Source: an uncultured Colwellia sp.
GTDB lineage: Bacteria; Pseudomonadota; Gammaproteobacteria; Enterobacterales; Alteromonadaceae
DNA length: 64,000 bases
Direction of reading: 5' to 3'
NCBI GenBank assembly: GCA_913062815.1
Contig: CAJXWZ010000027.1
Coordinates: 1 to 64,000 of the forward strand
The position numbers and the translations under genes were made by a program. Below are positions 23,801 through 50,294 of this stretch, piece after piece (the stretch's first letter is position 1; every line of letters starts with the position of its first letter). The notes below the pieces were generated by a model that was not told the origin of the DNA, ran no database searches, and worked only from the letters and a program-made list of their open reading frames with translations.

Positions 23801-23818
23801 CTAATGAAAGGTTTAAAA

Positions 23819-24343
23819 ATGAAAGAAACATTTAATATATTTAGATTTATTAGCTGGGTAGCCATTATATGTTCGCTGTTAGGGTCTGTTTTATTGTTTA
23901 TTGTTGGAGCAATGAAGACCTATTCAGCCTATACGACCGTGCTTTTTGCTCAAGTTACCAATGAGAGTCTATCTCATCTTGATACATCTGAAGTTGCAAC
24001 GACCTATTTGATTAAATCATTAGATACTTTTCTCATTGCGCTGGTATTATTTATTTTTGCTCATGGCGTATTTACCTTATTCATCTCTGATAAGAAAGTT
24101 GCCAATAAAACATCCGTCCTCAAATGGATAAGCACGCCAAACATCGGCCATTTAAAGAACATATTGGGCGAAGTCATCGTCATTATTTTATTTGTTAAGT
24201 TTCTCGAAATAATATTGATTAATTTAAATAGCCTCAAGTGGGAGATATTAATACTGCCTATTTCTATTCTTATGCTTGCTCTGAGTTTAAAATTTTTAGG
24301 GCTGGGGCGTGAAGACAAAAAAGATGGCAGTGACGATATTTAA
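23819..24343 (+). CDS. YqhA/UPF0114 family membrane protein
   Basis: Small inner-membrane protein (174 residues from the ATG at 23819, chosen because AAAGG lies seven bases upstream; an ATG at 23804 is also in frame). Helices are visible at the N-terminus (FISWVAIICSLLGSVLLFIVGA), in the middle (TFLIALVLFIFAHGVFTLF) and near the C-terminus. The pattern matches the uncharacterised YqhA family; no function is established. It is convergent with the recA fragment and shares its terminator. Confidence 0.85.
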   Translation: MKETFNIFRFISWVAIICSLLGSVLLFIVGAMKTYSAYTTVLFAQVTNESLSHLDTSEVATTYLIKSLDTFLIALVLFIFAHGVFTLFISDKKVANKTSVLKWISTPNIGHLKNILGEVIVIILFVKFLEIILINLNSLKWEILILPISILMLALSLKFLGLGREDKKDGSDDI

Positions 24344-24510: not shown

Positions 24511-25047
24511 TTATTCTGAAACTTCTACTTCTTTCTCTTTTGAAACATCATTTTTATTTAAAAACATTTCTCGTAATTTAGCATCAACATCTTTAGCCAT
24601 TTCAGGATGTTCATCTAGGTATTTCGCGGCATTGGCCTTACCTTGACCTATACGTTCACCGTTACAGCTGTACCATGCGCCAGCTTTTTCAACAAAACCA
24701 TTTTTAACCCCTAAATCAATTAGTTCACCTAGGTTGTTAATACCTTCACCATAAAGAATTTGGAATTCAGTTTGTTTGAATGGTGGCGCAATTTTATTTT
24801 TAACCACTTTGACACGCGTTTCATTACCGACAATTTCATCGCCATTTTTCACGGCGCCAATACGGCGAATATCTAAACGCACAGAAGCATAAAATTTTAG
24901 CGCATTACCACCTGTTGTTGTTTCTGGGTTACCAAACATCACCCCTATTTTCATACGGATTTGGTTGATAAAGATAAGCATGGTGTTTGATTTTTTCAAG
25001 TTACCCGTTAACTTACGCATAGCTTGCGACAACATACGTGCTTGCAA
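24511..25047 (-). pseudogene. recA: RecA, C-terminal half only (truncated by an element)
   Basis: The 178-179 codons match RecA from the segment equivalent to E. coli residue ~166 to the C-terminus: [44 protein letters not shown] and an acidic tail. Similarity ends exactly at the TTG codon at 25047, where family members continue upstream with GDSHVG; here the next codon is AAT. Walker A, Walker B and the L1 loop are missing, so this piece cannot be a working recombinase. No damage is seen within the remaining part, which suggests a recent break. The 5' half is not found in the window. Either recA is disrupted here, or a second recA exists elsewhere. Confidence 0.95.
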
Positions 25048-25213
25048 ATTTTATCTAGGACTAAAAATGAAGGGTAATAGGCTCACCATCAAAAAAAACA
25101 ATAAACCACTAAAAATTATAACATTAATTAATAAACAGTCATCTTCAAATAGTAAATCACAAAAAACAGGTGTAAGATAGAAAAATTATAAAAGTGAAAG
25201 ATAAGAGTTATAC

Positions 25214-27148
25214 ATGGCAAAGGGACCTCAACTTGTAAATGACATTCATAGCTACAAAGTTTTGCCTCATCGCTATGCGTCAAATTTGAATGATGCTTTA
25301 AAAATAATAAGTAAAGGGAAGGAATACTCGTATAAAACTAAAAGAGCTAGATTATTATCCGAATTTATTGAATTTTGTTTTAATGAAGACTTAGTCATCA
25401 AAAATGGAACCGATGTGGCTCTGTGTTTCTCTGCATGGCAGGAAGAACATTTTAGTGGTTCTAAAGAAATCAATGCCGAAACGTTAATTTCTTACTCTAG
25501 GGTATTGTGGTCTACCTTGTCAAAACTCTGTCATATAAGCGTATTAGGTCTTCCAGAGACAAACTCGATTCCCCCCCCTCGTCGGCTTAGCACTATTGTA
25601 TATTCTGATACAGACACTTCGAAAACAAAAATCCTCGGTGGTTTTGACCTAACTAAGAGTCAAAGTGATCAATCACTAACCTTAACGTTAGAAGAAGACG
25701 TAGATACTTTCATCAAAAACCTCATAAATAAAATGCGTAAGCACAGAGATGTAATTTACAAGATCTCAAAAAAATATCTAGCCGATGCAACAAATAGGTA
25801 TGAATTCGCTCAAAATGTGACAAAGGAAATAAGTAGTGAATACTTTAAAGATAACCTAAAGCTGCAACACCCAAAACAAAAAGCTATTGATAGTGGTCAA
25901 TATTTAAGTCTCTTTTCTAAGTATTTAAGGGATGGTGAGTGCGGGTATTCAAACTTAATTGCCTATATCAATCATTGTCATCATGGTCTAATTACTCGCC
26001 ATTTTCCTGGCGGAAACAATCATTTATATCGATTTACAAACAACCAGTATGAACTTAGAGAGCATTTCGGCCTATCATCTCTATCAGCAGTTGCTGCTAG
26101 CAATATTATCATTGTAGAGTCAGGTATAAATGTCGATAGCCTTAGAAAACTTTCCTTAACAGCTCAAGGTACGATGACTAATTTTTTTGAGCCTAAAACC
26201 AATGGCTTTGAAATTAGTTATCGCAAATCAAGAGCAAGAGCACATAAAAGCCGTAATTTAAAACATTTAAATGCCGATGATTCTTATATAGAAAGTGCAT
26301 TTGATTATTTGGCTTTAGCCACATCACATCATCGAACTATGATTAAAGGGAAATTAGCGTCTAGACTATTTATTCATGACTCAGCCCAAAAAACAGGCCT
26401 ACCTATCGTCATGAGTGATTTTCCATTAAAGCATGGTTTTAAGCGTTTACTTGTCGCGGCAAGAGATCTACTCACAAAGGATCCTGATTGGTGTGCTGAT
26501 GTCACCATCCAATGTATTGATGAAGTGTTAGCTCATAACCCTCATGCCAAGGCTTTACGTGCTACAGAAAGCATCATTAGATGGTTTGATAGTGGTGGTA
26601 ACCCTGCTGTTGCCGCTAAATACCTTGGTAATACTGAAACTGTAGCAATTAAAAATTACCTACCTAAAGAATTACAATTAGCCGTATATAACCAACGAAT
26701 CAGGCGATTCCAAAATGTTCTTATAGCAAGTGCAACAAACAGGAAAGACTATCAAATTAAGGCCCTCGATCTAAAAGATGAGAAGGAGCTAAAGGAATAT
26801 TTATTAAAGCTAGATAAACGCGTTCCTCATTGGCGCACTGTGGTTAAAGAGTTATCCAAAGACTCCTCAACCCGAATGAATAGAAGTAAAAAAGTGACCC
26901 TTAATATCTGCCCAGAAAATGTAGCAGTTATGAAAGCTTGTTATGTAAAACAGACTGAGCGTGATATCAAAAACATCAAAATAGAAGACTGTATAAAGGA
27001 TCTTTCACATGTATATCTGGGATTAATTACCTATTTAAAGAAAAATCCAGATAGACGGTTAAATAGAACAATTCTAAAGGGTGAAAAGCTTTATGACAGT
27101 AATACAAATAACTATCTACAAGTACAAATAATTAAGCAAGAGGACTAG
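25214..27148 (+). CDS. Large tyrosine-recombinase-fold protein with degenerate active site
   Basis: Protein of 644 residues, first gene of the module. The C-terminal catalytic-domain pattern can be aligned: box I R311 (VDSLRKL), a basic beta-strand region (YRKSRARAHKS), the second arginine R449 (ALRAT), and Y482 (KNYLP). The position of the first histidine of HxxR is K446, and the second histidine (GHxS) is N473. R449, N473 and Y482 have the canonical spacing. Two of the six usual catalytic residues are therefore changed, which suggests an architectural or DNA-binding subunit rather than a strand-cutting enzyme. This resembles the inactive recombinase-fold partners known in other multi-recombinase elements. 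It ends two bases before the next gene. Confidence 0.8.
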   Translation: MAKGPQLVNDIHSYKVLPHRYASNLNDALKIISKGKEYSYKTKRARLLSEFIEFCFNEDLVIKNGTDVALCFSAWQEEHFSGSKEINAETLISYSRVLWSTLSKLCHISVLGLPETNSIPPPRRLSTIVYSDTDTSKTKILGGFDLTKSQSDQSLTLTLEEDVDTFIKNLINKMRKHRDVIYKISKKYLADATNRYEFAQNVTKEISSEYFKDNLKLQHPKQKAIDSGQYLSLFSKYLRDGECGYSNLIAYINHCHHGLITRHFPGGNNHLYRFTNNQYELREHFGLSSLSAVAASNIIIVESGINVDSLRKLSLTAQGTMTNFFEPKTNGFEISYRKSRARAHKSRNLKHLNADDSYIESAFDYLALATSHHRTMIKGKLASRLFIHDSAQKTGLPIVMSDFPLKHGFKRLLVAARDLLTKDPDWCADVTIQCIDEVLAHNPHAKALRATESIIRWFDSGGNPAVAAKYLGNTETVAIKNYLPKELQLAVYNQRIRRFQNVLIASATNRKDYQIKALDLKDEKELKEYLLKLDKRVPHWRTVVKELSKDSSTRMNRSKKVTLNICPENVAVMKACYVKQTERDIKNIKIEDCIKDLSHVYLGLITYLKKNPDRRLNRTILKGEKLYDSNTNNYLQVQIIKQED

Positions 27149-27150
27149 TT

Positions 27151-29166
27151 ATGGAATTAATCAACATTGAAAACAGTAAGTTGCTTGAAGGTAAAAACTG
27201 GTCATATCAATCAAAAAAAACTAGCGAATGGTATTTTCCTTGGTTACTTTGTGACTTCAAAGCCAAACAATGGAAAATAAAATCTGAGGGTGAACTTGCT
27301 ATAACAATACCTTTCGATGACTACATCCCTTCAACAGGTGAGACTTTAGCACATCCTAAATATAGGTTAATTGTTAATGTAATCAAGAAAGTGATCGCTC
27401 TATCTAGAACTGGTCATTTAGCAATTCAAAATGGTAATGATTTAATAACCACGCGCGCGCAGAGAATGCATTCAAATGCCACATCATTGAAAACACTTGC
27501 ACTATTTCTTATTAAAATTTATGGTGAAAAATCTGTCTGCGAAGAAGGTTTTAATTTGCTAAAAAAAGCTGATATAAATCAATTTCACCTCGATATTGCA
27601 ACAGGACGGGCGGATAAAGCTACAGGGCTGAAAGATGCTATATTTAAAAAAATTAGTTATTTTGATCATGAAAGTATTTCAGCTTTATTGAATACCTGTA
27701 GCAATCCTCAAGATAATAAAATTAATATGAGTCAGTTTCTTGAAAAAATTTCAATTGGTAAAACTTCTATATCAGAAACTACAACGGCTCAAGTAATAAA
27801 TTTTGTGATAGAGCTATTTCCTGACTTATCTATTGTTCTTGGGGAAAAAAAATTAAGAAAGAAAAATGAGTTCCCTAATGCTTGTCCTCCAAAAATATCC
27901 ACCTGTGATGACGGAATTGGTACTACTACTTTTAACTCTCTTACTAACGGTCCCGCCCTTTTGAGCCGTTATCACTTATATCTACCAGAATTGAATAATT
28001 ACTCAAACCCTAGTGTAACTGTGAGCGAAGTTTTCACAAATAAGTATATTAAAATAAAAGAAAGAACCCCCAATATTCCAACAGATCTAACTCTAAATTA
28101 TCTAAATGAATCGATAAAATTAGTAACGGTCTATGGTAAACATATTATGGAAACAAAGCAGCATTGTGATATGGAAATGATGCGGCTTCATGAAAAATAC
28201 CCAAAGCTACGCAGATGTGCAATCTTAGAACCTCCAAGAGTAAACCAATTAACAATACCTAAAAATAAATTCACAAAAGACTATAACGTTACCCGATACA
28301 ATGAACTTCCCTCAAATGCTTCATCTGATGAGAAACGTGAAAATGTCACGGTATTGTTTGCTTATAAAATGCTTAGAGCAGCAACATACATTTTAATTCA
28401 TACATTTTGCATTAAGCGTATAAGTGAAGTGCTCGGATTAAAAGAATCTAGTTTAGAGCATGGCCTGTGGGGTGGTTATGATATTTTTTTTGGAATAAGA
28501 AAAGCTGCCCCCACTGATAACTCGCTTTTACTAACTGGTAGGCCAATACCAAATATTGTGTCAGAAGGATATAGCTATTTAATTGATGCCAATGAGCATT
28601 TTTTTGAAGAGGATGAAGATATCTTCTTATTTTTAAAAAACGCTACCATTAAAGGCGATGGTACTGTACCAAATAATGAGAAAATGTCCTCACCAGCAAT
28701 GATAAACAACCTGATGGACTTTGCTGATTTCATAAAGCTTCCAACAATGATAGTAAATGGTGTTGAATCAAGGTATTACCTATCTCGAACTCATGTCCTC
28801 CGTAGGTTTGGAGCTAAAGCATACTACTCACTTAGCGATTTGAGTGATTTTCCAGCCCTATCCTGGATGATGGGGCATCGTAATACACAAGAAACATGGG
28901 AATATCTACTTGAAGAAGTTACCAATGATGAGCTAAGTGAGGAAGAGGCTTCGGCGATTGTTGATGCACTTTATAAGCCAGATATAAATACATCAAACAT
29001 AGAAGATGATATCAATACTGCCTTTGGATACAAGTTCAATAATCTATCTCCTGATATGGTAAAAAATTATATACAAGAGCAAATTAGAAATGGAGCCAAG
29101 ATATACGCATACACAAATCAAGAGACCAATGAAAGAATATTATATATGGAGTCAATTGATGAATAA
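27151..29166 (+). CDS. Large tyrosine recombinase, intact active site
   Basis: Protein of 671 residues. The catalytic set is complete: R423 (IKRISEVLGL), H548 and R551 (THVLRR), H576 (GHRN) and Y585 (WEYL), with the nine-residue H-to-Y spacing normal for the family and a lysine-containing strand (FGIRKAAP) between. The N-terminal ~350 residues are unlike phage integrases and presumably bind DNA. It may correspond to GmtY of the Gamma-Mobile-Trio, judged by size and by gene order with the next two; this is from memory and unverified. It overlaps the coiled-coil gene by eight bases. Confidence 0.85.
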   Translation: MELINIENSKLLEGKNWSYQSKKTSEWYFPWLLCDFKAKQWKIKSEGELAITIPFDDYIPSTGETLAHPKYRLIVNVIKKVIALSRTGHLAIQNGNDLITTRAQRMHSNATSLKTLALFLIKIYGEKSVCEEGFNLLKKADINQFHLDIATGRADKATGLKDAIFKKISYFDHESISALLNTCSNPQDNKINMSQFLEKISIGKTSISETTTAQVINFVIELFPDLSIVLGEKKLRKKNEFPNACPPKISTCDDGIGTTTFNSLTNGPALLSRYHLYLPELNNYSNPSVTVSEVFTNKYIKIKERTPNIPTDLTLNYLNESIKLVTVYGKHIMETKQHCDMEMMRLHEKYPKLRRCAILEPPRVNQLTIPKNKFTKDYNVTRYNELPSNASSDEKRENVTVLFAYKMLRAATYILIHTFCIKRISEVLGLKESSLEHGLWGGYDIFFGIRKAAPTDNSLLLTGRPIPNIVSEGYSYLIDANEHFFEEDEDIFLFLKNATIKGDGTVPNNEKMSSPAMINNLMDFADFIKLPTMIVNGVESRYYLSRTHVLRRFGAKAYYSLSDLSDFPALSWMMGHRNTQETWEYLLEEVTNDELSEEEASAIVDALYKPDINTSNIEDDINTAFGYKFNNLSPDMVKNYIQEQIRNGAKIYAYTNQETNERILYMESIDE

Positions 29167-29872
29167 GGGTGTATCAAGTAAAAAAGTATCAGAGAACCAT
29201 ATATCTGCTTCCCTTAGTGATGAAACCATGAAGCAAATAAAGCTACGAATAAATCTATTAAACGACTTTCTTAAAGATGGTATTACAGATGGATTTGATG
29301 CTCATAAATTGCAATCAACTTTTTTAGCCTATTCTAACGGAAAGGGAATAATATCACGAAGTAGACCTGCTATTGCCGATAAAAATTGTCCTGTAGGTGA
29401 AATTGATCCTCAATATAAAATTGATCCCACTAAAATTGTAAATTGCCTTGATTATATAGAACTGAAGCGAAAGGAACTCATCAGCCAACAGCGAACAATA
29501 AAATCTATTGAAGCAGATAATAATGAAAATAACGTTGAAACCAAGATCGCATTAAAAACTATAACAAAGGGGAGACTTAAACAGGTTATCAATGAACAAG
29601 CAGACTTAATTAGATCACTTGCACGCGAACTTTTATTGCAACGAAGTGCAAATAATAATTTAATCTCTCTTATCAAAGAGGCTGATCATCGTCACCAAAT
29701 GACTTTGAGACCATACTACGCAAACCATCAAGATGAACTGTTAAAAACCAGAAAAAAAAATAGCTCTCAGTTGAGTGATGTTATTTCTACCCTTAAAGAT
29801 GTTTCAGAAGAACTTAATGCGTTAACTGTAAGCACAACCGACAATATCGTTTCTATGTGGGCAAAGAAATAA
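29159..29872 (+). CDS. Coiled-coil protein between the recombinases (GmtX-like position)
   Basis: The frame is open from 29090, but the ATG at 29159 overlaps the previous stop and has GGAG upstream, giving 237 residues. No catalytic motif is visible. Much of the protein is charged and helical, with probable coiled coils around DYIELKRKELISQQRTIK, INEQADLIRSLARELLLQR and the C-terminal SQLSDVISTLKDVSEELN. Its place between two recombinase genes, with overlaps at both ends, indicates an accessory role such as bridging the recombinases. The Gamma-Mobile-Trio has a comparable middle protein, GmtX. Confidence 0.75.
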   Translation: MNKGVSSKKVSENHISASLSDETMKQIKLRINLLNDFLKDGITDGFDAHKLQSTFLAYSNGKGIISRSRPAIADKNCPVGEIDPQYKIDPTKIVNCLDYIELKRKELISQQRTIKSIEADNNENNVETKIALKTITKGRLKQVINEQADLIRSLARELLLQRSANNNLISLIKEADHRHQMTLRPYYANHQDELLKTRKKNSSQLSDVISTLKDVSEELNALTVSTTDNIVSMWAKK

Positions 29873-29874
29873 TT

Positions 29875-31344
29875 ATGCCCTTTGAAGACTTAAAAATAGA
29901 TGTAAAAAGTGTCTTTACTCCTGAAGGATCAGAAAGTGCAAAAGATTCTTGCGTTTTTTTGTATGGCAATAACGACATTAACTGGTTTGCAACAGACTAC
30001 TTAATGTCAGATTCTGTACCTGAAGGCTCTAAAAATGTTACTAAAGGGATGATAAGGTATTTTTTAGAATACCTTAATAATTATGAAAATTGGCAACATG
30101 GGACTGCTTTGGTTAAGCCGGTTCCAATGGGAGAGGTTACTGATAAACATCTATTCAACTTCGTAGGCTATATTGAAGATGATATAGGATTAAATCGTAA
30201 TGGTATTGTGCGAAGAGTAAAATCTGCTTTAAGCCTTCTAGAGTTCATACAAAATACTTACAACCTTGATTATAAACTGATCTCTATTTCTTCAAATAAT
30301 GAATATATTGAAAAAGGATTAACTAATGCTAAATGGCTCATTAACCAATTCACAGGAAAGAGATACCTGCATCATGAGTGTCTTCCAGACATTGAAGACT
30401 ATCCTAGCAGAAACCCTATAACAGAAGAAGCTATTGAAAGCTTATACGATGATCTAGACAAATTGGCTGAATCGGGTCAAGAGCTAAAACATGAAATGTT
30501 GACGGCTCTTATCGGTCTTCTAGAAAAAACAGGTATCAGAGTTAGTGAGGCAGCAAACATTGATGAACATACAATTGAATTATTACGATTACAATTAACA
30601 TCTTGGCTAAATGGGACACCTATAGATTTAACTGAACTTGCAAAAGCTGCCAAATTGACTATTGATAAAAAAAGTTTAAAAGCTGCAGAAGCTATTTACC
30701 GTAGATCAAAAATTAGTAAAGGAAGTCACGATCTCGTATGGATACCAATCAAAACGACCAAAGGTAAAAAGAAAAACAAAATTAGGCTAATCCCTATTCC
30801 AGTAGCTTCTGCACAGTATCTTGTTAGGTTTTATGATGACTATATTGTTAATGAACTGGACAGGGTTAGAGCAGGTGAACACAAGATTAATAGGAAGAAA
30901 CATAAGAAGTTATTCATTCAACCTGAAACTCACGCACCGATGACCGGAGTGATGCTTTCTAGTTTGTTCTATGACGTATTTAGTCGTCAATATAAGAGTG
31001 CTAAGCACAAACGTTCCCCTCATTTATTTCGTCATCGCTTCATCACATGTTTGGTGCTACAACAACTTAAGAGCTTAAACTCCAAATTTGGGGGTCAACA
31101 ACTAGCCAGTTTAATACTAAAACGTATACAAGGATTAACTGGACATGCTTCCATCGCAACCATGCTTCACTATGTTGAGCTAGCGGAGGCGGAGATACAA
31201 GATCCTGATGAAAAGTCAGAAGATATTGCATTTGACGATGAAACCCGTGAAGTACTAATCGAAAAATATGGTGAAGATGAAGTAGCCATCATTGAATATG
31301 AAATAATAAAAAAGAGAACAGAGAACAGAGAACAGAGAAAATAA
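29875..31344 (+). CDS. Tyrosine recombinase/integrase, intact active site
   Basis: Protein of 489 residues from the ATG at 29875, immediately after the previous stop (a GTG at 29857 is also in frame). The catalytic residues are complete: R222 (TGIRVSEA), a lysine-rich beta hairpin (TTKGKKKNK), H383 and R386 (HLFRHRF), H424 (GHAS) and Y433 (LHYVEL). It is the most integrase-like of the three and would correspond to GmtZ if the trio identification is right. The C-terminus is highly charged, ending in a repeated ENRE peptide. The 600 bases after it hold no recognisable gene. Confidence 0.88.
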   Translation: MPFEDLKIDVKSVFTPEGSESAKDSCVFLYGNNDINWFATDYLMSDSVPEGSKNVTKGMIRYFLEYLNNYENWQHGTALVKPVPMGEVTDKHLFNFVGYIEDDIGLNRNGIVRRVKSALSLLEFIQNTYNLDYKLISISSNNEYIEKGLTNAKWLINQFTGKRYLHHECLPDIEDYPSRNPITEEAIESLYDDLDKLAESGQELKHEMLTALIGLLEKTGIRVSEAANIDEHTIELLRLQLTSWLNGTPIDLTELAKAAKLTIDKKSLKAAEAIYRRSKISKGSHDLVWIPIKTTKGKKKNKIRLIPIPVASAQYLVRFYDDYIVNELDRVRAGEHKINRKKHKKLFIQPETHAPMTGVMLSSLFYDVFSRQYKSAKHKRSPHLFRHRFITCLVLQQLKSLNSKFGGQQLASLILKRIQGLTGHASIATMLHYVELAEAEIQDPDEKSEDIAFDDETREVLIEKYGEDEVAIIEYEIIKKRTENREQRK

Positions 31345-31952
31345 AAAACATTAACTGCAAGTTTCTCTCAATATTAACCAAATTTTGATTCAACTAATTG
31401 CTGTTCGCATGATGAGCTACTCAAGCAACAAGTGAAGTCATGAAAATCATAACTTTAGCGTTTCAATTTGGCACCAAATGTTACTGATAAATAGATCTGA
31501 GTTCTGAATTATCAGAACAATAGACTTCACGTTCATATACACTATCTTCAAGATAGCTGACATTAGAATATATACTCTATGGCCCTTTCGCCCCCATTGA
31601 GAGATAGGACTAAACAATCACTAATGTTGCAGATCAACCTGCACGCTAGAAAATTTAAACGTCAACTTCCCTATCCGAAGCTTTTTTGTAGAATTATGCC
31701 AAAGTATAAGTAATGTATTAACAGGTCGTTTTATCGTTGTCCAAAGTTTGTTACGTTGTGTAAACACACTTTTAGTATAGTTATCCTCCTTAAGTCGATG
31801 GATTTCTTTTTAATCATATCAATGACTTTTTCATAAATAGAAGTTATAACTATAATATGGTGTTATTTTTGATATCTAAATAAATCATGTTAGATAATCG
31901 ATAATAATGGATAAGTAGTACAATTCAATAAAATAAATTAAAAGGAATAATT
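31345..31952. other. 608-base intergenic region after the recombinase genes
   Basis: No coding frame, RNA gene or recA 5' sequence is seen on either strand. It contains TAGGACTAAA (31605-31614), which also lies just inside the left end, the hairpin-like GTTCTGAATTATCAGAAC near 31500, and CTAGAAAATTT at 31646. It probably holds the right end or internal control region of the element and the promoter of the signalling operon. Confidence 0.5.
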
Positions 31953-33263
31953 GTGTCAGAGATAAATACCGAGCCACATCCATACTCAGACATGACCCTT
32001 TTATGTGTTGATGATGAGGCAAGTATTTTAAGAACAATGCAACGTTTATTTCGCAATAAGCCTTACGAAATTGTCATTGCTGAAAGTGGCGAACAAGCGT
32101 TACTTATTATGCAAGAACAACCAATTGACTTGATAATATCAGATATGAGAATGCCGGGAATGGACGGCCCCACTTTATTAGAAAAATCTGCTCAATTATA
32201 TCCAAAAATGTGTCGTATAGTACTGAGTGGTTATGCAGATTTCGAATCTACAGTAGCCGCAGTTAACTTAGGAAAAATAAATAGATTTATAAATAAACCA
32301 TGGAATAATAATGAATTAATTAATGTTGTTGAAGAATGTTTAGAAAGTATAAAATTAAAGAAAGAAAACAATCAATTAAAATTAAAAATAAGCCAAAAAA
32401 ACGAGCAACTAAAACTTTGGAATCAAGAGCTTGAAGAGAAGATAAATTTACGAACCAAACAAATACTCGCTTCACTAAAGCGAAACGAAAGGAACAACAA
32501 AGCTACCGAAAAGATGCTTTTCAATTTTATAGCGATCAATTCAAACCTTAATGGTGACTTTGCAAAAAATGTCGGAAATTTAGCTGGACGGATGGCCAGT
32601 AAGCTTGGTTTAGATAAAAGTGATATCAATGATATTCGCCTTGCCGGTTTCCTCACTGAAATTGGCATGTTGGGTTTGGATGAGAAAATTTGCACTACAC
32701 CATATAACCTGTTGAATTATGATCAAAAAACAGAGTTCTTAGGGCAAGGGAAAATTGCACAACAAATCCTCTCCCCTGCCCATCATATGAATAATGTTCT
32801 TGATATGATTTGCAATCAATACGAATCACTCGATGTAATAGCAACGTTAGGTAATAATGTTGCTCAGCAAGGAAGTCGAATTTTAAGAGTTGCTCGAGAT
32901 TACTGGCGCTACGCGTACGGTAAAATTGCACCTGAAAAATTGGAATATCGACATGTTTGTATCGAATTAAACAAAGGCAAAAATATAAAATATGATCAAG
33001 AACTATTAGGTATTTTAGAATCAAATCCTGAGTTGGTAGAAGACGGAGTGGTGGAACAAGGTATTAACTCCCAACAACTTTTAGCAGGTATGTTACTAAA
33101 ACATAATTTGTATAGCACAAACCGCTTGTTAATTTTGGCTGAAGGCCATGAATTTTCTGAATCTTCTATTGATAAATTAATAGAGTACGAAATCAATCAA
33201 AAACATATATTTTCGATTGTAATCGAAAAATTTACTAACCAACAGAAGTTAATTAAGGATTAA
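31953..33263 (+). CDS. Response regulator with degenerate HD-GYP domain (HnoD-like)
   Basis: Protein of 436 residues: an N-terminal receiver with acidic pair D20/D21, phospho-acceptor D64 (ISDMRMPG) and KPWNN, a coiled-coil linker (~130-165), then an HD-GYP-related domain. In the latter the metal-binding LHDIGK signature reads LTEIGML and the GYP motif is gone, so phosphodiesterase activity is not expected. This matches the HnoD type, which modulates a partner phosphodiesterase in Shewanella H-NOX signalling. It starts at GTG with AAAGGA upstream. It is three bases from the H-NOX gene, so it belongs to the same operon. Confidence 0.85.
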   Translation: MSEINTEPHPYSDMTLLCVDDEASILRTMQRLFRNKPYEIVIAESGEQALLIMQEQPIDLIISDMRMPGMDGPTLLEKSAQLYPKMCRIVLSGYADFESTVAAVNLGKINRFINKPWNNNELINVVEECLESIKLKKENNQLKLKISQKNEQLKLWNQELEEKINLRTKQILASLKRNERNNKATEKMLFNFIAINSNLNGDFAKNVGNLAGRMASKLGLDKSDINDIRLAGFLTEIGMLGLDEKICTTPYNLLNYDQKTEFLGQGKIAQQILSPAHHMNNVLDMICNQYESLDVIATLGNNVAQQGSRILRVARDYWRYAYGKIAPEKLEYRHVCIELNKGKNIKYDQELLGILESNPELVEDGVVEQGINSQQLLAGMLLKHNLYSTNRLLILAEGHEFSESSIDKLIEYEINQKHIFSIVIEKFTNQQKLIKD

Positions 33264-33266
33264 AAG

Positions 33267-33815
33267 ATGCAAGGTTCTGTATTTACTTCTTTTTCAGATA
33301 TGGTTATTGAAAAAATGGGCATAGTGACATGGAATGAATTATTAATTAAGGTGAAACCTTGCTCTAAAGGAATTTATACGAATGCTATGTTATACCAAGA
33401 TTCAGAACTAATGGACTTGGTCACAGAGTTGTCGAAAAAAATGAAAATAGAGGTTGAAGATTTGCTTAGAATTTTTGGCGGTTACCTTTTTATTCGTTTA
33501 TATAATGCCAGTCCTGCAAACCTAACTAAAGTTGATAACCTTAAAGATTTTTTACTTATAATTGACTCGGTCATTCACAAAGAAGTTAAACGTGTATACC
33601 CAACTGCTTATCTTCCTACTTTTGATTACGCTGAAAATGCGCAAGGTGATTTGGTGATGCATTATCAGTCAAAACGAAAATTATGTCATTTAGCCGAAGG
33701 GTTAATATTAGGTGCTGCCGAACATTTTAATCAAATTATAACCATTCAACAACAAGAGTGCATGCACAATGGTGCTGATAAATGTAAGTTAACCATTTCT
33801 TTTAAGGAAAAGTAA
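33267..33815 (+). CDS. H-NOX heme nitric-oxide sensor protein
   Basis: Stand-alone H-NOX (HNOB) protein of 182 residues. The proximal heme ligand is H104 (SVIHKEV) and the heme-propionate motif YxSxR is Y133-S135-R137. C140, C165 and C173 occur where Shewanella and Vibrio H-NOX proteins have their zinc or redox site, though the expected histidine ligand near 162 is a glutamine. It should bind nitric oxide through ferrous heme and control the kinase that follows. The TAATG overlap with the kinase gene shows tight coupling. Confidence 0.95.
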   Translation: MQGSVFTSFSDMVIEKMGIVTWNELLIKVKPCSKGIYTNAMLYQDSELMDLVTELSKKMKIEVEDLLRIFGGYLFIRLYNASPANLTKVDNLKDFLLIIDSVIHKEVKRVYPTAYLPTFDYAENAQGDLVMHYQSKRKLCHLAEGLILGAAEHFNQIITIQQQECMHNGADKCKLTISFKEK

Positions 33816-34753
33816 TGAATGAGGAGAATGCGTATAAACTTGCTTATGAACGAGAAAAAAGTGCCCGATTACTCGCCGAAAAACTTCTTGAGAAAAAAAC
33901 ACGAGAATTATACGATAATGTTTTGAATCTTGAAGGTGCTGTTTCAGAGCTAAAATTAACGCAATCACAACTCATTCAATCAGAGAAAATGGCCTCATTA
34001 GGGAAAATTACTGCGGGTATCGCCCATGAAATAAATAATCCTATTGGCTACTCATATAGCAACCTCTCTTGCTTAGCAGAAAATTTAATAGACTATTTTA
34101 GTTTAGACAGTATCATACAAAATTCGAATGTCCTTCAAGAAGATCCGTCTTTCGTATTAAAGAAATACCGTCAAAAACATAAACAAATCAATGCAAACTA
34201 TATTATTAAGGATTGTCCTAGTTTACTCTGTGATTCGCTCGAAGGTTTAGATAGAGTGAAGAGTATAATCAATAATTTGAAAAAAATATCTTATAAAGGC
34301 AACAACGAGTTTATTTCCTGCAGTATCAATGAATGTATTAATGATTGTATTAAAGTGGTAGACAATGAGTTTAAATATTCGATGGACGTTAATTTAGAAC
34401 TTGAAGACTGCGCTAATATTTGTGGACAGCCAGCAGATCTAATCCAAGTCTTTATTAATTTATTTATAAATGCTTCACATGCCTGTAGTGAAAATGGATT
34501 ATTGAGTATTAAATCTCACCAAGAGAACCGTCATATAATTATCAGAATAAAAGATAACGGCAAAGGCATTAACGAAAGCATCCAACAGAATATATTCGAC
34601 CCTTTCTTCACAACTAAACTTGCTGGGGAAGGTACCGGATTAGGTTTGTCTGTATCCCACGGTATTATTGAAAAACATGGTGGAACAATAAAAGTACAGA
34701 GTGATGGACATGATGGAACTTGTTTCATCATTAAGCTTCCTATTGAAGAGTAA
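33815..34753 (+). CDS. Soluble H-NOX-associated histidine kinase
   Basis: Cytoplasmic kinase of 312 residues with no membrane helix or sensor domain of its own. An N-terminal coiled coil leads into the phospho-acceptor H71 (GIAHEINNPI). The ATPase domain has the N-box, DNGKGI and GEGTGLGLSVSHG. As in the HnoK family, its input is probably the H-NOX protein encoded just upstream, with nitric-oxide-bound H-NOX inhibiting autophosphorylation. The upstream response regulator is the obvious phosphate acceptor, and other regulators may be too. Confidence 0.9.
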   Translation: MNEENAYKLAYEREKSARLLAEKLLEKKTRELYDNVLNLEGAVSELKLTQSQLIQSEKMASLGKITAGIAHEINNPIGYSYSNLSCLAENLIDYFSLDSIIQNSNVLQEDPSFVLKKYRQKHKQINANYIIKDCPSLLCDSLEGLDRVKSIINNLKKISYKGNNEFISCSINECINDCIKVVDNEFKYSMDVNLELEDCANICGQPADLIQVFINLFINASHACSENGLLSIKSHQENRHIIIRIKDNGKGINESIQQNIFDPFFTTKLAGEGTGLGLSVSHGIIEKHGGTIKVQSDGHDGTCFIIKLPIEE

Positions 34754-34897
34754 CTATAATTAACGTTGATTAAAACAATTAGCTATTTTGAACATATATA
34801 TAAGTCAATAAAATCTGAATAAATAAAGCATATTTACAGCCTTAGAACTAATTATGCGAATTTAATCGAGTGTAACTTTTATTATTTAAGGATATTC

Positions 34898-36136
34898 ATG
34901 TTAATGGTACTGTTAAACATTTCCAATAAAGGTAAATTTGCCTTTTGTTTAGTCGCACTTTTTGTTTTTTCTTGGCCTATATCTGCCCAGCAGCGATATA
35001 GAATTTACCTAGATGCTGATTTTTCCAGTACACAAGCCTCAAGTAACTCAATAAAACAGGGTATTGAAGTGGCACTAGCTGAAGAGAATTTTCAAATAAA
35101 TAGTTTTATTTTTGAGCTAGTTACTAAAGACCATCATGGAAACTCCTTACGAAGCAAACGTAATTTAGAGGCGTTCGTTTCTGATCAGCGAGGGTTAGTA
35201 GTTTTCTCTGGCTTACATTCGCCTCCTTTACTGGCTAATAAGGAGTTTATTAATCGCAACAATATATTGATGCTAGTTCCTTGGGCCGCTGCCGGACCAA
35301 TTACTCGCAGTGGCGATGATGAAAACTGGATATTCAGATTATCAATTGATGACAGTAACGCCGGTACTTTTATTACCGAGCAGGCTTTGAAGGAAGGGTT
35401 TAAAAAACCTTTACTTTTGTTAGAAAATACAGGCTGGGGGCGCTCGAATGAGCATACCATGACTCAAGCGCTACAACAAAAAAACATTAAGCCTAGTAAT
35501 ATAAAATGGTTTAATTGGGGGCTAGGTATTAATCAAGCCAAATTGTTGTTACGAGAAGCAAAATTAGATAATAGTGACGTAATTTTTTTTGTTGGTAATG
35601 CCAATGAAGGAAAAGTATTCATAAAAGCAATGGCTGAGTTGGAGAGTGATATAATACTACCAATTAGAAGTCACTGGGGAATAACTGGAGGAAATTTTGC
35701 AGAAACAATTAGTGTAAAACAAAGAGAAAATATAGACTTGCAATTTATTCAAACTCGATTTTCATTTTTAACTCAGCCAAAGACAGCGTTAGCAAAGCAA
35801 GTTTTCAAACAAGCCTCCTCTCGATATTCAATGATAAAAAGCCCCTCAGACATAAAAGCACAAACCGGTTTTATCCATGCGTATGATTTAACCAAAATAT
35901 TGATTGAGGCAATAAAAAGTGCGTCCTTAAGTGGTGATAGGGAACGCGATAGTCAAGCAATAAAAGAAGCTTTAGAAAATTTACAAAACCCCGTTAAAGG
36001 TTTAATTAAAACCTATGACAAGCCTTTTTCTCAATACTCAGCAAGTAATGCCAACGCACATGAAGCTCTATCTATTGCCGATTATGTAATGGCATATTAT
36101 AACGACAACAATAACATCGTATTATTAAAAAAATAA
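34898..36136 (+). CDS. Periplasmic substrate-binding protein (ABC-type, amino-acid/urea-like fold)
   Basis: Exported protein of 412 residues with a signal peptide ending near SAQQ. The mature part resembles type I periplasmic binding proteins of the branched-chain amino-acid family (peripla_BP_6), with FSGLHSPPLLA, a hinge region and NTGWGRSNEH. No permease or ATPase genes are near. The next gene, 31 bases on, is a membrane histidine kinase, so the likely job is ligand sensing in the periplasm rather than import. The ATG has AAGGA upstream. The ligand is unknown. Confidence 0.85.
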   Translation: MLMVLLNISNKGKFAFCLVALFVFSWPISAQQRYRIYLDADFSSTQASSNSIKQGIEVALAEENFQINSFIFELVTKDHHGNSLRSKRNLEAFVSDQRGLVVFSGLHSPPLLANKEFINRNNILMLVPWAAAGPITRSGDDENWIFRLSIDDSNAGTFITEQALKEGFKKPLLLLENTGWGRSNEHTMTQALQQKNIKPSNIKWFNWGLGINQAKLLLREAKLDNSDVIFFVGNANEGKVFIKAMAELESDIILPIRSHWGITGGNFAETISVKQRENIDLQFIQTRFSFLTQPKTALAKQVFKQASSRYSMIKSPSDIKAQTGFIHAYDLTKILIEAIKSASLSGDRERDSQAIKEALENLQNPVKGLIKTYDKPFSQYSASNANAHEALSIADYVMAYYNDNNNIVLLKK

Positions 36137-36167
36137 TACCTACTATAAAGCAATATTTAATGACATT

Positions 36168-37973
36168 ATGAAAAAAACCAGTATTTCATTCGCACTTGCC
36201 AGCTTTGTTTTTGTTAGCAGTTTTGTGCTTGCTGCTTTTTCCACTGTATTAGTAATTAATCATATTGTAGATACAGAAAATAAACAGCAAACACAGCTTA
36301 TCAAAAGAGAAACCAATACTATCATCAATAGTTATCACTTGTTTTTTCAACATAGGTTAACCCTACTCACCGAACAAGCTAACTTCCCAATGATGTTGCA
36401 AGCGGCTATGCAGCCAGAAGCTAATATTAGTAAATTAAAGGATTTTATGGCCGATATTACTCTTTTAGGTGAACGCTATCAGCAAACACTTTTAGATTTT
36501 GAAGGAAATCATCTTTATTCCAGTATAAATAGCGATGTTCCTGATTATAAGGTGAAACCTTGGCTGAATAATCTAATCTTACAGGACGAAGATAATTATT
36601 TAGGTGTTGAACAATTAAATGGGCAATATTTTTGGGTTATGGCAATGACTATTCGTTATAACAAGTCTACCGAAGGATTTTGGGTAACTTTGCTCCCAAT
36701 AAAAGAAATAGACGAAACAAAGCATTCAAAAGAACAATTAAACGGCTTAATGATTGAAGTACACCACAAAGAAAAACTAATCATACGTTTTGGCCAACAT
36801 TTAGAGGGGCAAAGCTATGTTATCAATTGGCAACATATGTCTGTTGCATTTAAATTTACATTTGACAATTCTGTAATGAATCAAGAACTTTATAGTGCTG
36901 CTTTGAAATTTAGTTCCCTCATTATTCTCGCACTTATTCTGATCAGCACGTTAGCCTATTTTTATGGTTATCGTTACTTTGTTAAACCGCTATTACTTTT
37001 ATCTCAAGCGACTGGAGAGCTTGATAAAGGGAGTGAATATACTAAGCTACAAGAAAACTTAAGGATTAAAGAGTTAGACGAATTATTTGTAAAGTTTAAT
37101 CAAATGACAAAAAAGGTTCATCGAAGAGAACAAGCACTAAAGAAAAGCTATGACAAATTATCCAAAGCTAATGAAAACTTAATACTAAGTGAATCTCAAT
37201 TAATACAATCTGAAAAACTAGCCAGTATTGGTATGTTATCTGCTGGGGTAGCTCATGAAATTAATAACCCGATAAGTTTCGTGAAAAGTAACTTAGAGAT
37301 ACTGAAAGGTTACTTAGATGATATAGAAGCTTATCGCCATGAAATTGAAGGTCAATTTACTTCTCAAGTACAACAATACCTTCTGCAATCAATTGCCAAA
37401 AAATACGATATTCAATTTATTATAGACGATAGTAAACCTCTTTTAGATAACAGTATTGAGGGAACTAAAAAAATTACTGAAATAGTGAGTAATTTAAAAA
37501 CTTTTGCGAGAACAGAGCAAGAGACTAAAACTTTAACTGATATCAACGAAGGACTTACTGCCACTATAAATATGGTATCAAATGAACTTAAATATACTTG
37601 TAAATTACATATCGATTTAGCGCCTTTACCAAATATTTATGCGTTTCCGAGTAAATTAAATCAAGTATTTATGAACTTGTTAATGAATGCTGGACAATCA
37701 ATAACAAATAAGGGGGATATTTTTATCAGAACATTTCAAAAAGATCTCTATATTGTTATAGAGATTAAAGATAACGGTAGTGGCATTGCAGCTAACGTAT
37801 TACCCTATATTTTTACCCCTTTCTTCACATCTAAACCGGTAGGTGAAGGTACAGGTCTTGGCTTATCAATCAGTCATGGAATTATTGAACAACATAACGG
37901 CAGAATAGAGGTCATATCAGAAGAAAATAAAGGTAGTTGCTTTTCTGTTTATATTCCTACCAAATTAAAATAA
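36168..37973 (+). CDS. Membrane sensor histidine kinase
   Basis: Protein of 601 residues. A membrane helix at ~8-30, a periplasmic sensor region, a second helix at ~245-268 and a HAMP-like segment lead to a coiled coil. The phospho-acceptor is H363 (GVAHEINNPI), and the ATPase domain has DNGSGI and GEGTGLGLSISHG. The phospho-acceptor region is strikingly similar to that of the H-NOX kinase (both have LIQSEK...AS.G and AHEINNPI). It is paired with the binding protein upstream. Its response regulator is not adjacent; the sigma-54 activator at the end of the window is a candidate. Confidence 0.92.
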   Translation: MKKTSISFALASFVFVSSFVLAAFSTVLVINHIVDTENKQQTQLIKRETNTIINSYHLFFQHRLTLLTEQANFPMMLQAAMQPEANISKLKDFMADITLLGERYQQTLLDFEGNHLYSSINSDVPDYKVKPWLNNLILQDEDNYLGVEQLNGQYFWVMAMTIRYNKSTEGFWVTLLPIKEIDETKHSKEQLNGLMIEVHHKEKLIIRFGQHLEGQSYVINWQHMSVAFKFTFDNSVMNQELYSAALKFSSLIILALILISTLAYFYGYRYFVKPLLLLSQATGELDKGSEYTKLQENLRIKELDELFVKFNQMTKKVHRREQALKKSYDKLSKANENLILSESQLIQSEKLASIGMLSAGVAHEINNPISFVKSNLEILKGYLDDIEAYRHEIEGQFTSQVQQYLLQSIAKKYDIQFIIDDSKPLLDNSIEGTKKITEIVSNLKTFARTEQETKTLTDINEGLTATINMVSNELKYTCKLHIDLAPLPNIYAFPSKLNQVFMNLLMNAGQSITNKGDIFIRTFQKDLYIVIEIKDNGSGIAANVLPYIFTPFFTSKPVGEGTGLGLSISHGIIEQHNGRIEVISEENKGSCFSVYIPTKLK

Positions 37974-37993
37974 TTCTATTCCTGATATCATTA

Positions 37994-38004
37994 TTGCTTT
38001 GCAA
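37994..38004 (+). promoter_or_regulatory. Inverted repeat TTGCTTTGCAA, candidate enhancer site A
   Basis: TTGC-TTT-GCAA, the first of three exact copies in the exopolysaccharide region. It lies 59 bases upstream of a sigma-54-type promoter element, where an NtrC-type activator would bind. Confidence 0.55.
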
Positions 38005-38062
38005 TATGCGACAACGTCTTCCCTTCCCACAATAACCATATGATTATAAAGAAAATATAAAA

Positions 38063-38078
38063 AGGAACACTCCTTGCT
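38063..38078 (+). promoter_or_regulatory. Sigma-54-type promoter before the LruC gene
   Basis: AGGAACACTCCTTGCT keeps GG-N10-GC with TTGCT at -12; the -24 part is weaker (AGGAACA against TGGCACG). Transcription would start ~38089, 23 bases before the chosen ATG at 38112. Confidence 0.55.
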
Positions 38079-38111
38079 ATATAACTAATAAACATGTCAG
38101 GAGTTATTTGT

Positions 38112-40199
38112 ATGTGGTATTTAAAAAACCTTCAACGTTGCTTTTTCGCTTATTTAATAATTTTTCAAGTATCTTTGAATGCGAGTCCTTTCGAGAGTTG
38201 TCCTTCAAATGCATTTTTAATGCAACAAACAGTTGCACAACTTTATGGCGTAAACCTAGTTACGGGAGAGTACTCTTTATTATCAGACAATTTAGGCACT
38301 AATGATAAAATCAATGCCATCGGCTTTAATTTTCATGATAATTACATTTATGGTTGGGGATATGAATGGGGCACTTTAGTTCGTATTGGGGATGACTATC
38401 AAGCCACACCAATTGTACTAGAAAATAACCCTGGAATAAATTTTTTTGTTGGTGATGTCGCAATCAATGAAAACAGCTATTATTTTTATAAAAAAGGTGT
38501 GAGTTACGGTTTATATAAAGTTTCCTTAAATGAACAGTCAAACGAATATTTACAAGTAAAAAAAATTATTAATGGGCAAAGTCTGTCGATCCCTATTTTT
38601 GATTTTGCTTTTCATCCTGATAATGGTTTTGCTTACACTGTAGATAAAAATGGGCAACTTTATCAAATAAACGTCACTAACGGTAACTTAACTGCCTTAG
38701 GTAATGTAGGGGAATCAGGTACCTTTGGCGCCGTTTACTTTGATGTTGAGGGCAATTTCTATATTAGTCGTAACAATGATGGTTTTGTCTTTATTATTAA
38801 CATTGATGATGTAACCCCAAAAGCGACATTTTTTGCCTACGGCCCTAACGCGTCACAAAACGATGGTGCACGTTGTGCTGTTGCCCCTGTTATTGATGAA
38901 TCTATTGCTGCAACAACTGACTATGGTGATGCTCCAGACAGTTACGGAACTACACTTTTTAGTAATGGTGCAAGACACGGTATCAGCAATGTCTATCTAG
39001 GCAATAATATAACCACTGAGCATAATGCTAATGTCTACCCTAAAGTAGACCAAGATGACGGTATTATTTATTTAACACCTTTATTAGCAGGCAGTGACAG
39101 TCTCATTCAAGTAAAAGCTACAGGTGCTGGCTACATAAATATATGGGGTGACTGGGATCGTGATGGTAAGTTTTCACAAGAAGAAAAATTAATTTCAGAT
39201 AAATATATGGATAATACAACCGAAGTGTTCCTTGTCAATACACCAGTAAGTGCTTTAAATGGTTTTACTTGGACAAGAGCTAGATTCACTTCAATAGCTT
39301 CAATAGTCGCTAGTGGTGGTGTCCCTGATGGTGAAGTTGAAGATTATAGAGTACTAGTAACTAACTCTGGTAATAGCCAAATTCAAGATACACCGTACTA
39401 CATTGCCTTTGAAGATAGCTGGCCGGAACAAGGTGATTACGATATGAATGATGTTGTTATGTTACAGAACTCTTCATTATTATTAAACGATGCATTCGAA
39501 GTAAAACAAATTGAATTTCAAGGTGAATTAAAAGCACTAGGCGCCTCTTATCACAATGGATTTGCTATCCAATTAGACAATATCCTACCTAGTAATGTAA
39601 ATAGAGATCTAGTACGTTTTGAAATCAATGGTGTTTTACAAGAAACTAATGCAATAGAAGAAGATACACAATATTTAGTAATTAAAATCACTGATGATTT
39701 ACGTAGTCATATTCAACTAAATGAAAGTTGTTCTTATTATAAAACAGAAGCAAATTGCAGTAATGCATCTCAAATGAACTTCAGCGTAACAGTGCCGTTT
39801 ATTAACCCCATATCATTAGTTCAGTTTCCTGAAGCACCTTATAACCCATTTATATTTGCCAAAGAAGCTACCTATCATGGTGATCTATTTTATCACCCTG
39901 GTAGAGCTCTAGAAATCCATCTAAAAAACAAAATACCAACGTCTAAAGCTGATTATAATATGTTCGGTGTAGCTGACGATAAAACTCAAATTTCGGTTAA
40001 TTATAACTATCAAAATAGTAATGGTTTACCTTGGGCGTTAGCTATAAATCCAGGCTCTCTAGAGGAGTGGAAACATCCCCGTGAAATGGTTGACATATTA
40101 CAAGCATATCCTAACTTTCAATTATTTGTAGAAAGCAATGGTAATAAAGAAACCAGCTGGTTCTCTCAAAATAATGCAGTTAATTCAAAACTTTATTAA
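38112..40199 (+). CDS. Secreted LruC-domain protein
   Basis: The frame opens at 38094, but the ATG at 38112 has AGGAG eight bases upstream and yields 695 residues. A signal peptide ends near LNASPF. Residues ~20-280 form a repetitive beta region (NLVTGEYSLLS) like DUF6923. A GEVED-type segment follows (DYGDAPDSYGT, VDQDDGI, GDWDRDGKF). A C-terminal LruC domain then carries the hallmark FEDSWPEQGDYDMNDVV. LruC proteins are surface-exposed or secreted calcium-binding-like proteins of unclear function. It is followed by a lipoprotein gene and shares sigma-54-type control with the exopolysaccharide genes, so a matrix role is plausible. Confidence 0.85.
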   Translation: MWYLKNLQRCFFAYLIIFQVSLNASPFESCPSNAFLMQQTVAQLYGVNLVTGEYSLLSDNLGTNDKINAIGFNFHDNYIYGWGYEWGTLVRIGDDYQATPIVLENNPGINFFVGDVAINENSYYFYKKGVSYGLYKVSLNEQSNEYLQVKKIINGQSLSIPIFDFAFHPDNGFAYTVDKNGQLYQINVTNGNLTALGNVGESGTFGAVYFDVEGNFYISRNNDGFVFIINIDDVTPKATFFAYGPNASQNDGARCAVAPVIDESIAATTDYGDAPDSYGTTLFSNGARHGISNVYLGNNITTEHNANVYPKVDQDDGIIYLTPLLAGSDSLIQVKATGAGYINIWGDWDRDGKFSQEEKLISDKYMDNTTEVFLVNTPVSALNGFTWTRARFTSIASIVASGGVPDGEVEDYRVLVTNSGNSQIQDTPYYIAFEDSWPEQGDYDMNDVVMLQNSSLLLNDAFEVKQIEFQGELKALGASYHNGFAIQLDNILPSNVNRDLVRFEINGVLQETNAIEEDTQYLVIKITDDLRSHIQLNESCSYYKTEANCSNASQMNFSVTVPFINPISLVQFPEAPYNPFIFAKEATYHGDLFYHPGRALEIHLKNKIPTSKADYNMFGVADDKTQISVNYNYQNSNGLPWALAINPGSLEEWKHPREMVDILQAYPNFQLFVESNGNKETSWFSQNNAVNSKLY

Positions 40200-40231
40200 T
40201 ACCAAAATAGCGATATAAGGGAGTAGAAGTG

Positions 40232-40711
40232 ATGAAGAACAATTTAATTACACTCATAATGTTAAACATAACTATATTAATTACGGGTTGCGGTGGAGGT
40301 GATGAAAAAGGAAATAATTCATCAACAGAATCGGTTGAAAGCCCTTCCCCAATTGAAATATCAACACAAAACACTATCGCCACAAGCGATTTAATGAGTA
40401 CCCCAGATTTTGATTTTATATCAGATGCTAATTTGGAAGTTACACTACCCATTTCTCCATCAACCGCCGTCAGTTACTTTATAAATATATGCACCGATTT
40501 CTCTGATGAAAATAATAAGGTTAAAATAAATTATGACAGTTGTAAGTTAAGGACATTACTTACAACTCAAGAGCAACTATTCAATTTATCCTTAAGTACG
40601 GCTGAATTCCGGTTATTAGCTCAAATTTGGCCTATTGAAAATAGCGCAAAACCAATAAATATTTACTGGGATATATCCAAATCAGGTAAAAGATGGAAAA
40701 TAACTATTTGA
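40232..40711 (+). CDS. Lipoprotein, unknown function
   Basis: Predicted lipoprotein of 159 residues. The signal peptide ends in the lipobox LITGC, with C20 as the lipidated residue, followed by GGGDEKG. The mature part has a low-complexity linker and a small C-terminal domain with two cysteines (NICTDF, DSCKLR). I do not recognise the family. The ATG at 40232 is preceded by AGGGAG. It lies 30 bases after the LruC gene, so both are probably co-expressed and the product may accompany the LruC protein. Confidence 0.75.
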   Translation: MKNNLITLIMLNITILITGCGGGDEKGNNSSTESVESPSPIEISTQNTIATSDLMSTPDFDFISDANLEVTLPISPSTAVSYFINICTDFSDENNKVKINYDSCKLRTLLTTQEQLFNLSLSTAEFRLLAQIWPIENSAKPINIYWDISKSGKRWKITI

Positions 40712-40876
40712 ATAGCAATTAGCATCACTCCTCTTCCACAAAACTGTAAAAACCAACTACTTAGTTATTAATTAGAAGGTTTTTACTTTCAAATAACTAT
40801 CAACCTAAACTAACTTTCAAGTAAAAATACAGCCAATATTAAAAATGAAACTATTATTAATGGAACTGTTATGACT

Positions 40877-40892
40877 TGCATTTTGAAATGCA
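40877..40892 (+). promoter_or_regulatory. Palindrome upstream of exopolysaccharide unit B
   Basis: TGCATTT-TG-AAATGCA, 80 bases upstream of the sigma-54-like element. It shares GCATTTTG with sequences before unit C (46855) and before the activator gene (63647). It is a possible variant activator site. Confidence 0.35.
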
Positions 40893-40971
40893 TAACGAGA
40901 AAAAAACCATCTAATTTCGGCAAATAAAAAAAAACACAATAAAACGTCTTAAAAAACAATGACAAATGATT

Positions 40972-40987
40972 TGGCATGTAAATTGAT
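40972..40987 (+). promoter_or_regulatory. Sigma-54-like promoter before exopolysaccharide unit B
   Basis: TGGCATGTAAATTGAT matches the -24 half very well and has TTG at -12, but the invariant C is an A (GG-N10-GA). It lies 38 bases from the ATG at 41025, a suitable distance. It is weaker than the other sites. Confidence 0.4.
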
Positions 40988-41024
40988 ATTACTACTGTAG
41001 TATTAGAAAAAAAGGCATTTAGAC

Positions 41025-41483: not shown

Positions 41484-41484
41484 G

Positions 41485-50293: not shown

Positions 50294-50294
50294 T

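Follow-up and report, generated by a model that had tools for sequence, protein, structure and literature searches.

A Colwellia recA gene split at a conserved site beside the recombinase end of a putative recA mobile element

The window analyzed here, 64,000 nucleotides from an uncultured Colwellia (positions 1-64000 of contig C27, 66,722 bases, in bin G000 of 5.15 Mb and 70 contigs), contains a recA gene that stops halfway, next to a set of recombinase genes. How did recA come to be cut at this point, and what became of the function that the cut gene encoded? The initial annotation of this locus had proposed either that recA serves a mobile element as its insertion target, at the cost of homologous recombination and SOS induction in the host, or that the host keeps a second recA. 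Our analysis indicates that the window very probably holds one end, the one with the recombinase genes, of an integrative element that is about 51.4 kb long and resembles those described in Vibrio as recA mobile elements (RMEs). This element would sit in recA and carry a likely replacement recA, here called recA_e, at its other end. The features are listed in Table 1.

Table 1. Features of the split recA locus, of the element and of related insertions (plain numbers refer to the window in the upper part and to the named genome in the last two rows)
Feature	Position	Strand or orientation	Basis or remark
Host flank, metH	14030-17731	-	name by eye; downstream of recA on C7
Host flank, metA	17799-18746	-	name by eye; downstream of recA on C7
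Host flank, UPF0114 membrane protein, between metA and recA	23804..24343	+	mostly absent in haplotype X
Intrinsic-terminator-like hairpin of recA and T-run	about 24450-24487	-	by eye; conserved in haplotype X
Host recA 3′ half, codon ~164 to stop	24511..25047	-	Pfam RecA 159-262 and RecA_C
TTTGCA on the recA strand	25043..25048		base 25048 common to TTTGCA and the inverted repeat
Terminal inverted repeat, module end, ATTTTATCTAG	25048..25058	.	
Element, visible part	25048..64000	.	
Gene A, 644 aa, degenerate tyrosine-recombinase-like	25214..27148	+	motif by eye, three aligned proteins
Gene B, 671 aa, large tyrosine recombinase with R, HxxR, GH, Y	27151..29166	+	7-protein alignment
Gene C, 237 aa from ATG at 29159 (ORF from 29090, 260 aa)	29159..29872	+	
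Gene D, 489 aa (ORF from 29857), ordinary-type tyrosine recombinase	29875..31344	+	
Cargo inside the window	31345..64000	.	identical in G022:C52; runs past the window end
Response regulator with HD domain	31953-33263		cargo; further signalling genes after it
Periplasmic binding protein	34898-36136		cargo; then polysaccharide synthesis/export cluster
recA_e, complete, 346 aa	C52:227-1267	orientation of host gene	Pfam 1-262 and RecA_C
126-aa gene, then Gabija gajB/gajA	C52:1830-5827 (Gabija pair)		element end, near recA_e
G309 recA_e, complete	1008591-1009616		
G404 recA_e, complete	158008-159039		

The split recA gene and its locus

The TTG codon at 25047 marks the start of RecA similarity, and from there the frame is open to the stop at 24511 (178 aa), matching positions 159-262 of the Pfam RecA model (E 3.8e-53) as well as RecA_C. 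The hairpin and T-run that follow agree with the earlier observation that the remaining half is otherwise undamaged and keeps its terminator, and the spacing of 167 bases between the end of the recA fragment and the first recombinase gene at 25214 was likewise confirmed. In the native Colwellia frame, the cut falls at codon ~164, about nt 489-494, just after loop L1. The TTTGCA motif at 25043-25048 appears to occupy the place of the overlap TCTCCA of the V. parahaemolyticus RME, and the exact crossover bases are predicted from the sequence. The repeat at the module end, ATTTTATCTAG, is matched in 10 of 11 positions, in mirrored orientation, by ATTTTATCGAG at the far element end (C52:1-11 of G022, a related Colwellia assembly); a 10/11 match is found at 2 of 39,976 positions (first 20 kb of C52, both strands).

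A misassembly at 25047 that joined an unrelated recombinase contig to recA could in principle create such a picture, the more so as the name of G022 points to a metagenome-type scaffold, reads may be common to the assemblies, and a run of 11 N bridges recA and the element exactly at the junction in C52. However, two assemblies cross the junction without a gap (G000:C27 and G031:C96, the latter with a recA 3′ half 100% identical to that of the window), and in C52 the recA half of a second haplotype, X, 12% different, passes into the ATTTTA of the element end ahead of the N run. The join also coincides with the terminal inverted repeat and with the published RME site. The initial annotation had proposed to look for the same junction elsewhere; it recurs in these further assemblies, and we consider a misassembly extremely improbable. 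A further Colwellia contig, G021:C214, stops exactly at the recA insertion site (10663; ..CATATGGGGCT), which may mark another insertion or be coincidental.

The fragment might also be a captured partial copy of recA carried on the element, with the native gene intact elsewhere. The bin indeed contains an intact recA on contig C7, 86% identical to the window 3′ half over 498 bases with mostly silent differences. The genes around the fragment, however, track the C7 recA locus: three pieces of C27 within 335-18845 match C7 61462-75446 with conserved order and 71-79% identity; metH, metA, and radA (names by eye) are among them, and the C7 recA lies directly next to these. Relative to C7, C27 has about 5 kb of additional genes between metA and recA. 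Since its neighbors keep the gene order of the C7 recA locus, the window fragment is evidently the cut native recA gene itself. Moreover, metH is found twice in G000 (C7 and C27), once each in G022 and G025, and in G031 as a single copy apparently split over two contigs, plus the C96 piece. Because metH is doubled in the bin and single in G022 and G025, C7 and C27 most likely represent the native recA loci of two different Colwellia genomes, and the intact C7 recA thus says nothing about the organism of the window. Searches of G022 detected no recA besides recA_e and the 3′ half. The captured-copy reading is accordingly very unlikely, and neither it nor a misassembly was borne out wherever the contigs allowed a test; the proposal of a mobile element that targets recA is supported. 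An intact second recA is present in the bin, but its assignment to the host was rejected, as it most likely belongs to the other Colwellia genome. More generally, finding an uninterrupted recA somewhere in a bin does not show that the organism behind any one contig possesses the gene.

The recA 5′ half, which had been reported missing from the window, was absent from both the window and the whole G000 bin, where a PF00154 search matched the intact recA on C7, the window fragment, and three weak RecA-family sequences. G022 likewise yielded neither the host 5′ half nor a mutS match, so the border beside recA_e is known there as a contig end; the contigs do not extend past the far border of the element.

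Relative to G022:C52, C27 switches haplotype near 15.8 kb. The two contigs do not differ near 15.0-15.9 kb, as far as C27:15886, or in the preceding 500-base windows; from C27:15886 to the recA junction, matching windows are 86.7-94.8% identical (98% in the breakpoint window), with 87.6% identity in the recA 3′ half. The two windows spanning 23001-24000 have no match in C52 because haplotype X has 63 bases in place of C27 22876-24245. Contig C96 of G031, 9,383 bases long, is identical to C27:15780-25162, and its overlaps with the shared sequence amount to about 106 and 111 bases, as expected if haplotypes X (C52) and Y (C27, C96) join one element in the assembly graph. Judged from contigs rather than reads, an identical element seems to be present in both Colwellia haplotypes.

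The far end, recombinase module, and cargo of the element

The element continues past the window, and contig C52 of G022 gives access to its other end. All 41,671 bases of C27:25052-66722 are identical in C52, which is free of N from 51375 to 1; since C52 starts at a terminal repeat matching the ATTTTATCTAG end, the whole element measures about 51.4 kb. Its G+C content is 34.4-34.5%, versus 39.3% in the flank. Contiguous with the element in G022, recA_e lies about 51.4 kb from the recA split, outside the window, and was not found in the G000 bin. It starts 226 bases from the inverted repeat at the C52 start and retains the Walker A, Walker B, L1, and L2 motifs, including ETTTGG. In a RecA tree of 43 rows, from which the C27 fragment and three other partial or odd rows were left out, recA_e groups with ten native Colwellia RecAs (support 100/99), the nearest being 90% identical at the protein level.

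These observations suggest how the locus may have arisen. The four-gene module would have recognized a conserved recA site (codon ~164, after L1), where the element would then have inserted, leaving the recA 3′ half beside the module and, presumably, the 5′ half with its SOS promoter at the other end. Located just inside that far end, recA_e would be transcribed from the host promoter and replace the lost function. Loss of homologous recombination and SOS induction, which the initial annotation had anticipated, need not follow, because the element carries a complete recA.

Some phages rebuild their target gene by supplying a replacement 3′ part, as at icd, and the element might in the same way form a hybrid recA with the host 5′ half. 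A complete recA at the far end, oriented as the host gene is, would fit such a scheme. Yet recA_e is evenly diverged from the ten native Colwellia genes (77-82% nucleotide identity in either half) and has its own start, 226 bases inside the inverted repeat, and in the related genome G309 described below the host 5′ remnant and a complete recA_e stand side by side. On the even divergence and the G309 arrangement the hybrid gene was rejected, and we attach next to no credence to it.

At the crossover, recA_e encodes GLAARMM where native genes encode GLQARML or GLQARMM (CAAGC to GCCGC), and it may hence be a poor target for its own element. Such a change could allow recA_e to escape the element, a form of target immunity. 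GLAARMM is also the E. coli sequence, so the crossover change may be ordinary variation.

The four module genes differ in how clearly they can be assigned. Gene A retains one arginine and the tyrosine of the recombinase motif (read by eye in three proteins, two of them close kin), whereas in the gene B alignment R, HxxR, and Y are present in all seven proteins and the second histidine in six. The small protein of gene C had no accepted family match. Gene D matched Pfam Phage_integrase (8.2e-7) and possesses R, HxxR, GH, and Y; searches of solved structures with D and B returned nothing useful. Gene A was detected in 3 of 61 relatives, namely the genome itself, G022 (100%), and G025 (28-30%), and, of 394 genomes in the order, six have gene B, the genome itself and five at 24-27% identity. 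No relative of gene B was found among the viral contigs searched. On plasmids, relatives of B and A are 24-28% identical, those of gene A being hypothetical proteins of two Pseudomonas putida plasmids (26-28%). On these large soil plasmids (L135 and L136), an A-like gene is followed by a B-like gene, in the same order as on C27; one plasmid adds a small third gene, and the other has an insertion sequence after the second gene.

Cargo occupies the remainder of the element. PADLOC identified gajB and gajA with E values of 5.9e-239 and 5.4e-295, respectively, and a Pfam scan of 10 cargo proteins (two taken from window coordinates and eight from C52) assigned several to polysaccharide synthesis or export (Wzy, flippase-like, Wzz, SLBB export, sugar transferase, and glycosyltransferase).

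Insertions at other recA sites in Alteromonadaceae

Relatives in other Alteromonadaceae sit at two further conserved recA motifs, the P-loop and L2. The three genomes described here (G404, G309, and G224) were chosen through odd scores and a protein search rather than an even screen, and no rates are given for this reason. In the single-contig genome G309, the order is LexA box, a recA 5′ piece of codons 1 to ~64 that ends ahead of the P-loop, recA_e, module (671/750/156/402 aa), cargo, and the 3′ remainder, which resumes from the P-loop. This element spans 16.6 kb, has TTAATAACGG at both ends as identical 10-bp inverted repeats, and shows a G+C content of 42.2% versus 43.2 and 46.0% in two flanking stretches. 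In G404, recA is cut in L2 (GSP / ETTTGG) and the 3′ remainder lies on a second contig (C14:6850-7308); the module (696/751/181/408 aa) is followed by a contig break past an IS21-like pair (by eye), and the element ends have only short repeats in common. Preceding the G404 3′ remainder are helicase, small-protein, and resolvase genes whose products are 38, 25, and 39% identical to their G309 counterparts. Between G404 and G309, proteins A, B, and D show 24-27% identity, with no match for C, and B alone is detectable, weakly, between these modules and that of C27. Gene A of G404 occurs in 5 of 395 genomes of the family, G404 included, and had no relative among the plasmids searched.

The third genome, G224, carries a decayed (fossil) insertion whose foreign recA survives: at C23:628124-630890, a complete recA_e (628554-629639) has a native 5′ piece of about 117 codons on one side and, on the other, 3′ pieces starting again at the L2 site. 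Genes read by eye as metA and metH lie downstream, and no recombinase module was seen at the locus. The RecAs of G404 and G224 lie on long branches, and their joining in the tree is unsafe.

Across the order, 4 of 394 genomes (G000, G057, G437, and G696) have two RecA C-terminal domains. Judged from the hit table, the G057 match is a fragment at the start of its single contig, and that of G437 lies at a contig end. G696 has a decayed native recA beside mutS (by eye; C4:119062-119936) and a full, diverged second recA (C12:83820-84902) in an apparent polysaccharide/nucleotide-sugar cluster; no recombinase module was recognized in the stretches fetched. Separately, four genomes, G394 (L083), G121 (L082), G356 (L084), and G274 (L086), show small deletions or frameshifts around the recA L2 region and gave no uninterrupted recA; mutants, scars, and assembly faults are indistinguishable among them.

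The expression of recA_e can be addressed by comparing upstream regions. A CTG-N10-CAG box precedes all ten native Colwellia recA genes and each of the three truncated native genes whose 5′ part is seen (G404, G309, and G224), placing the recA_e of these three genomes behind a host LexA-controlled promoter. No LexA box was found just before recA_e itself in any of four cases (226 bases scanned in C52, 142 in G404, 126 in G309, and 84 in G224). Lacking such a box and oriented as the host gene, recA_e is probably transcribed from the host's SOS-controlled recA promoter. Reliance on that promoter does not hold for RMEs in general: the recA of the V. cholerae element (VcRME) comes with its own LexA box, and laboratory insertions of VcRME occurred in both orientations (PMC4405046).

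A broader reading is that recA serves as a general docking site, in which distant modules have settled at at least three conserved motifs (P-loop, the helix after L1, and L2), each with a full recA devoid of a LexA box behind the host SOS promoter, so that host recombination and SOS would become dependent on the element; decayed elements would leave their recA behind, which would explain foreign recA in native loci. We see this generalization as evenly poised between right and wrong.

Comparison with known site-specific elements

Tn554, named by the initial annotation as a relative that targets a repair gene, has the genes tnpABC and the target att554 in radC, and we know of no replacement target gene in this transposon. 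It has three genes and, in the available text, no counterpart of the degenerate partner, whereas the Colwellia module has four genes and a recA target, on which grounds membership was rejected. The combination of tyrosine recombinases with a small protein is common to both (PMC10214605), and Tn554 holds as a distant analogy, the close precedent being the Vibrio RME.

The strand-biased circularizing elements (SE) share two catalytic recombinases, a degenerate partner, one further protein, and inverted ends with the Colwellia element, and SE-6283 sits in bcp with a bcp homolog aboard (PMC10214605, PMC5991714, PMC9345347). Their gene order, as given in the accessible text, is intA-tfp-intB-srap, in contrast to degenerate, large catalytic, small, and ordinary catalytic in Colwellia, and SE membership was rejected on this difference in order rather than by protein comparison. 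GInts also carry a four-gene tyrosine-recombinase operon at one end, are site specific, and have variable cargo, but their small gene, ginD, is last and ginC is degenerate, while in Colwellia the small gene is third and the ordinary recombinase last; recA is nowhere mentioned in the available GInt text (PMC5385486). GInt membership was likewise rejected on gene order.

Two Vibrio elements are much closer. VcRME is a 32.8-kb island (32,787 bp) in the recA of V. cholerae S24 at nt 494 that carries its own recA, excises as a circle, inserts into plasmid-borne recA, and protects recA-deficient E. coli against UV (PMC4405046). The RME of V. parahaemolyticus 090-96, VpRME, spans about 30 kb and cuts recA at nt 491 with a 6-bp overlap; it has four genes of 650/674/243/435 aa (table coordinates) beside the recA 3′ half and a complete recA that is 24% diverged (PMC4334540). 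In the literature searches, limited to the text they returned, the recA replacement strategy and the name "recA mobile element" were found for Vibrio only; among the papers examined on integration into recA, one on Acinetobacter has such wording in a reference and one on Yersinia ruckeri deals with allele types, and no paper was found that combines Gabija, an integrative element, and recA.

With this kind of element recognized in the window, what looked like a destroyed recA becomes an instance of target-gene replacement, and the known range of recA mobile elements grows beyond Vibrio to include Colwellia and other Alteromonadaceae, with comparators at two further recA sites. Takeover of the host SOS promoter by an element and a foreign recA becoming the sole recA are now testable, and such replacements can mislead when recA is used as a marker for typing or phylogeny.

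As far as the available descriptions go, the Colwellia element differs from VcRME in its size of about 51.4 kb, in a cargo of a polysaccharide cluster and Gabija instead of umuDC and other DNA-processing genes, in a recA_e without a LexA box, and in its host, and from VpRME in its cargo. It agrees with VcRME in sitting inside recA, with a complete diverged recA and the integrase at opposite ends, inverted repeats at the termini (those of VcRME measure 9 bp), and a G+C content below that of the host. Its module genes (644/671/237/489 aa) match those of VpRME in number, order, and length, the measures by which this likeness was judged rather than sequence, and likewise lie beside the recA 3′ half. 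Of the two host halves that flank an RME, the 3′ half is present and the 5′ half was found in neither G000 nor G022; the insertion site near nt 491-494, the element's own complete but diverged recA, and the placement of recA and module at opposite ends between inverted repeats are all found in Colwellia. With its architecture and recA position as in Vibrio, the Colwellia element very probably belongs to the already published RME kind.
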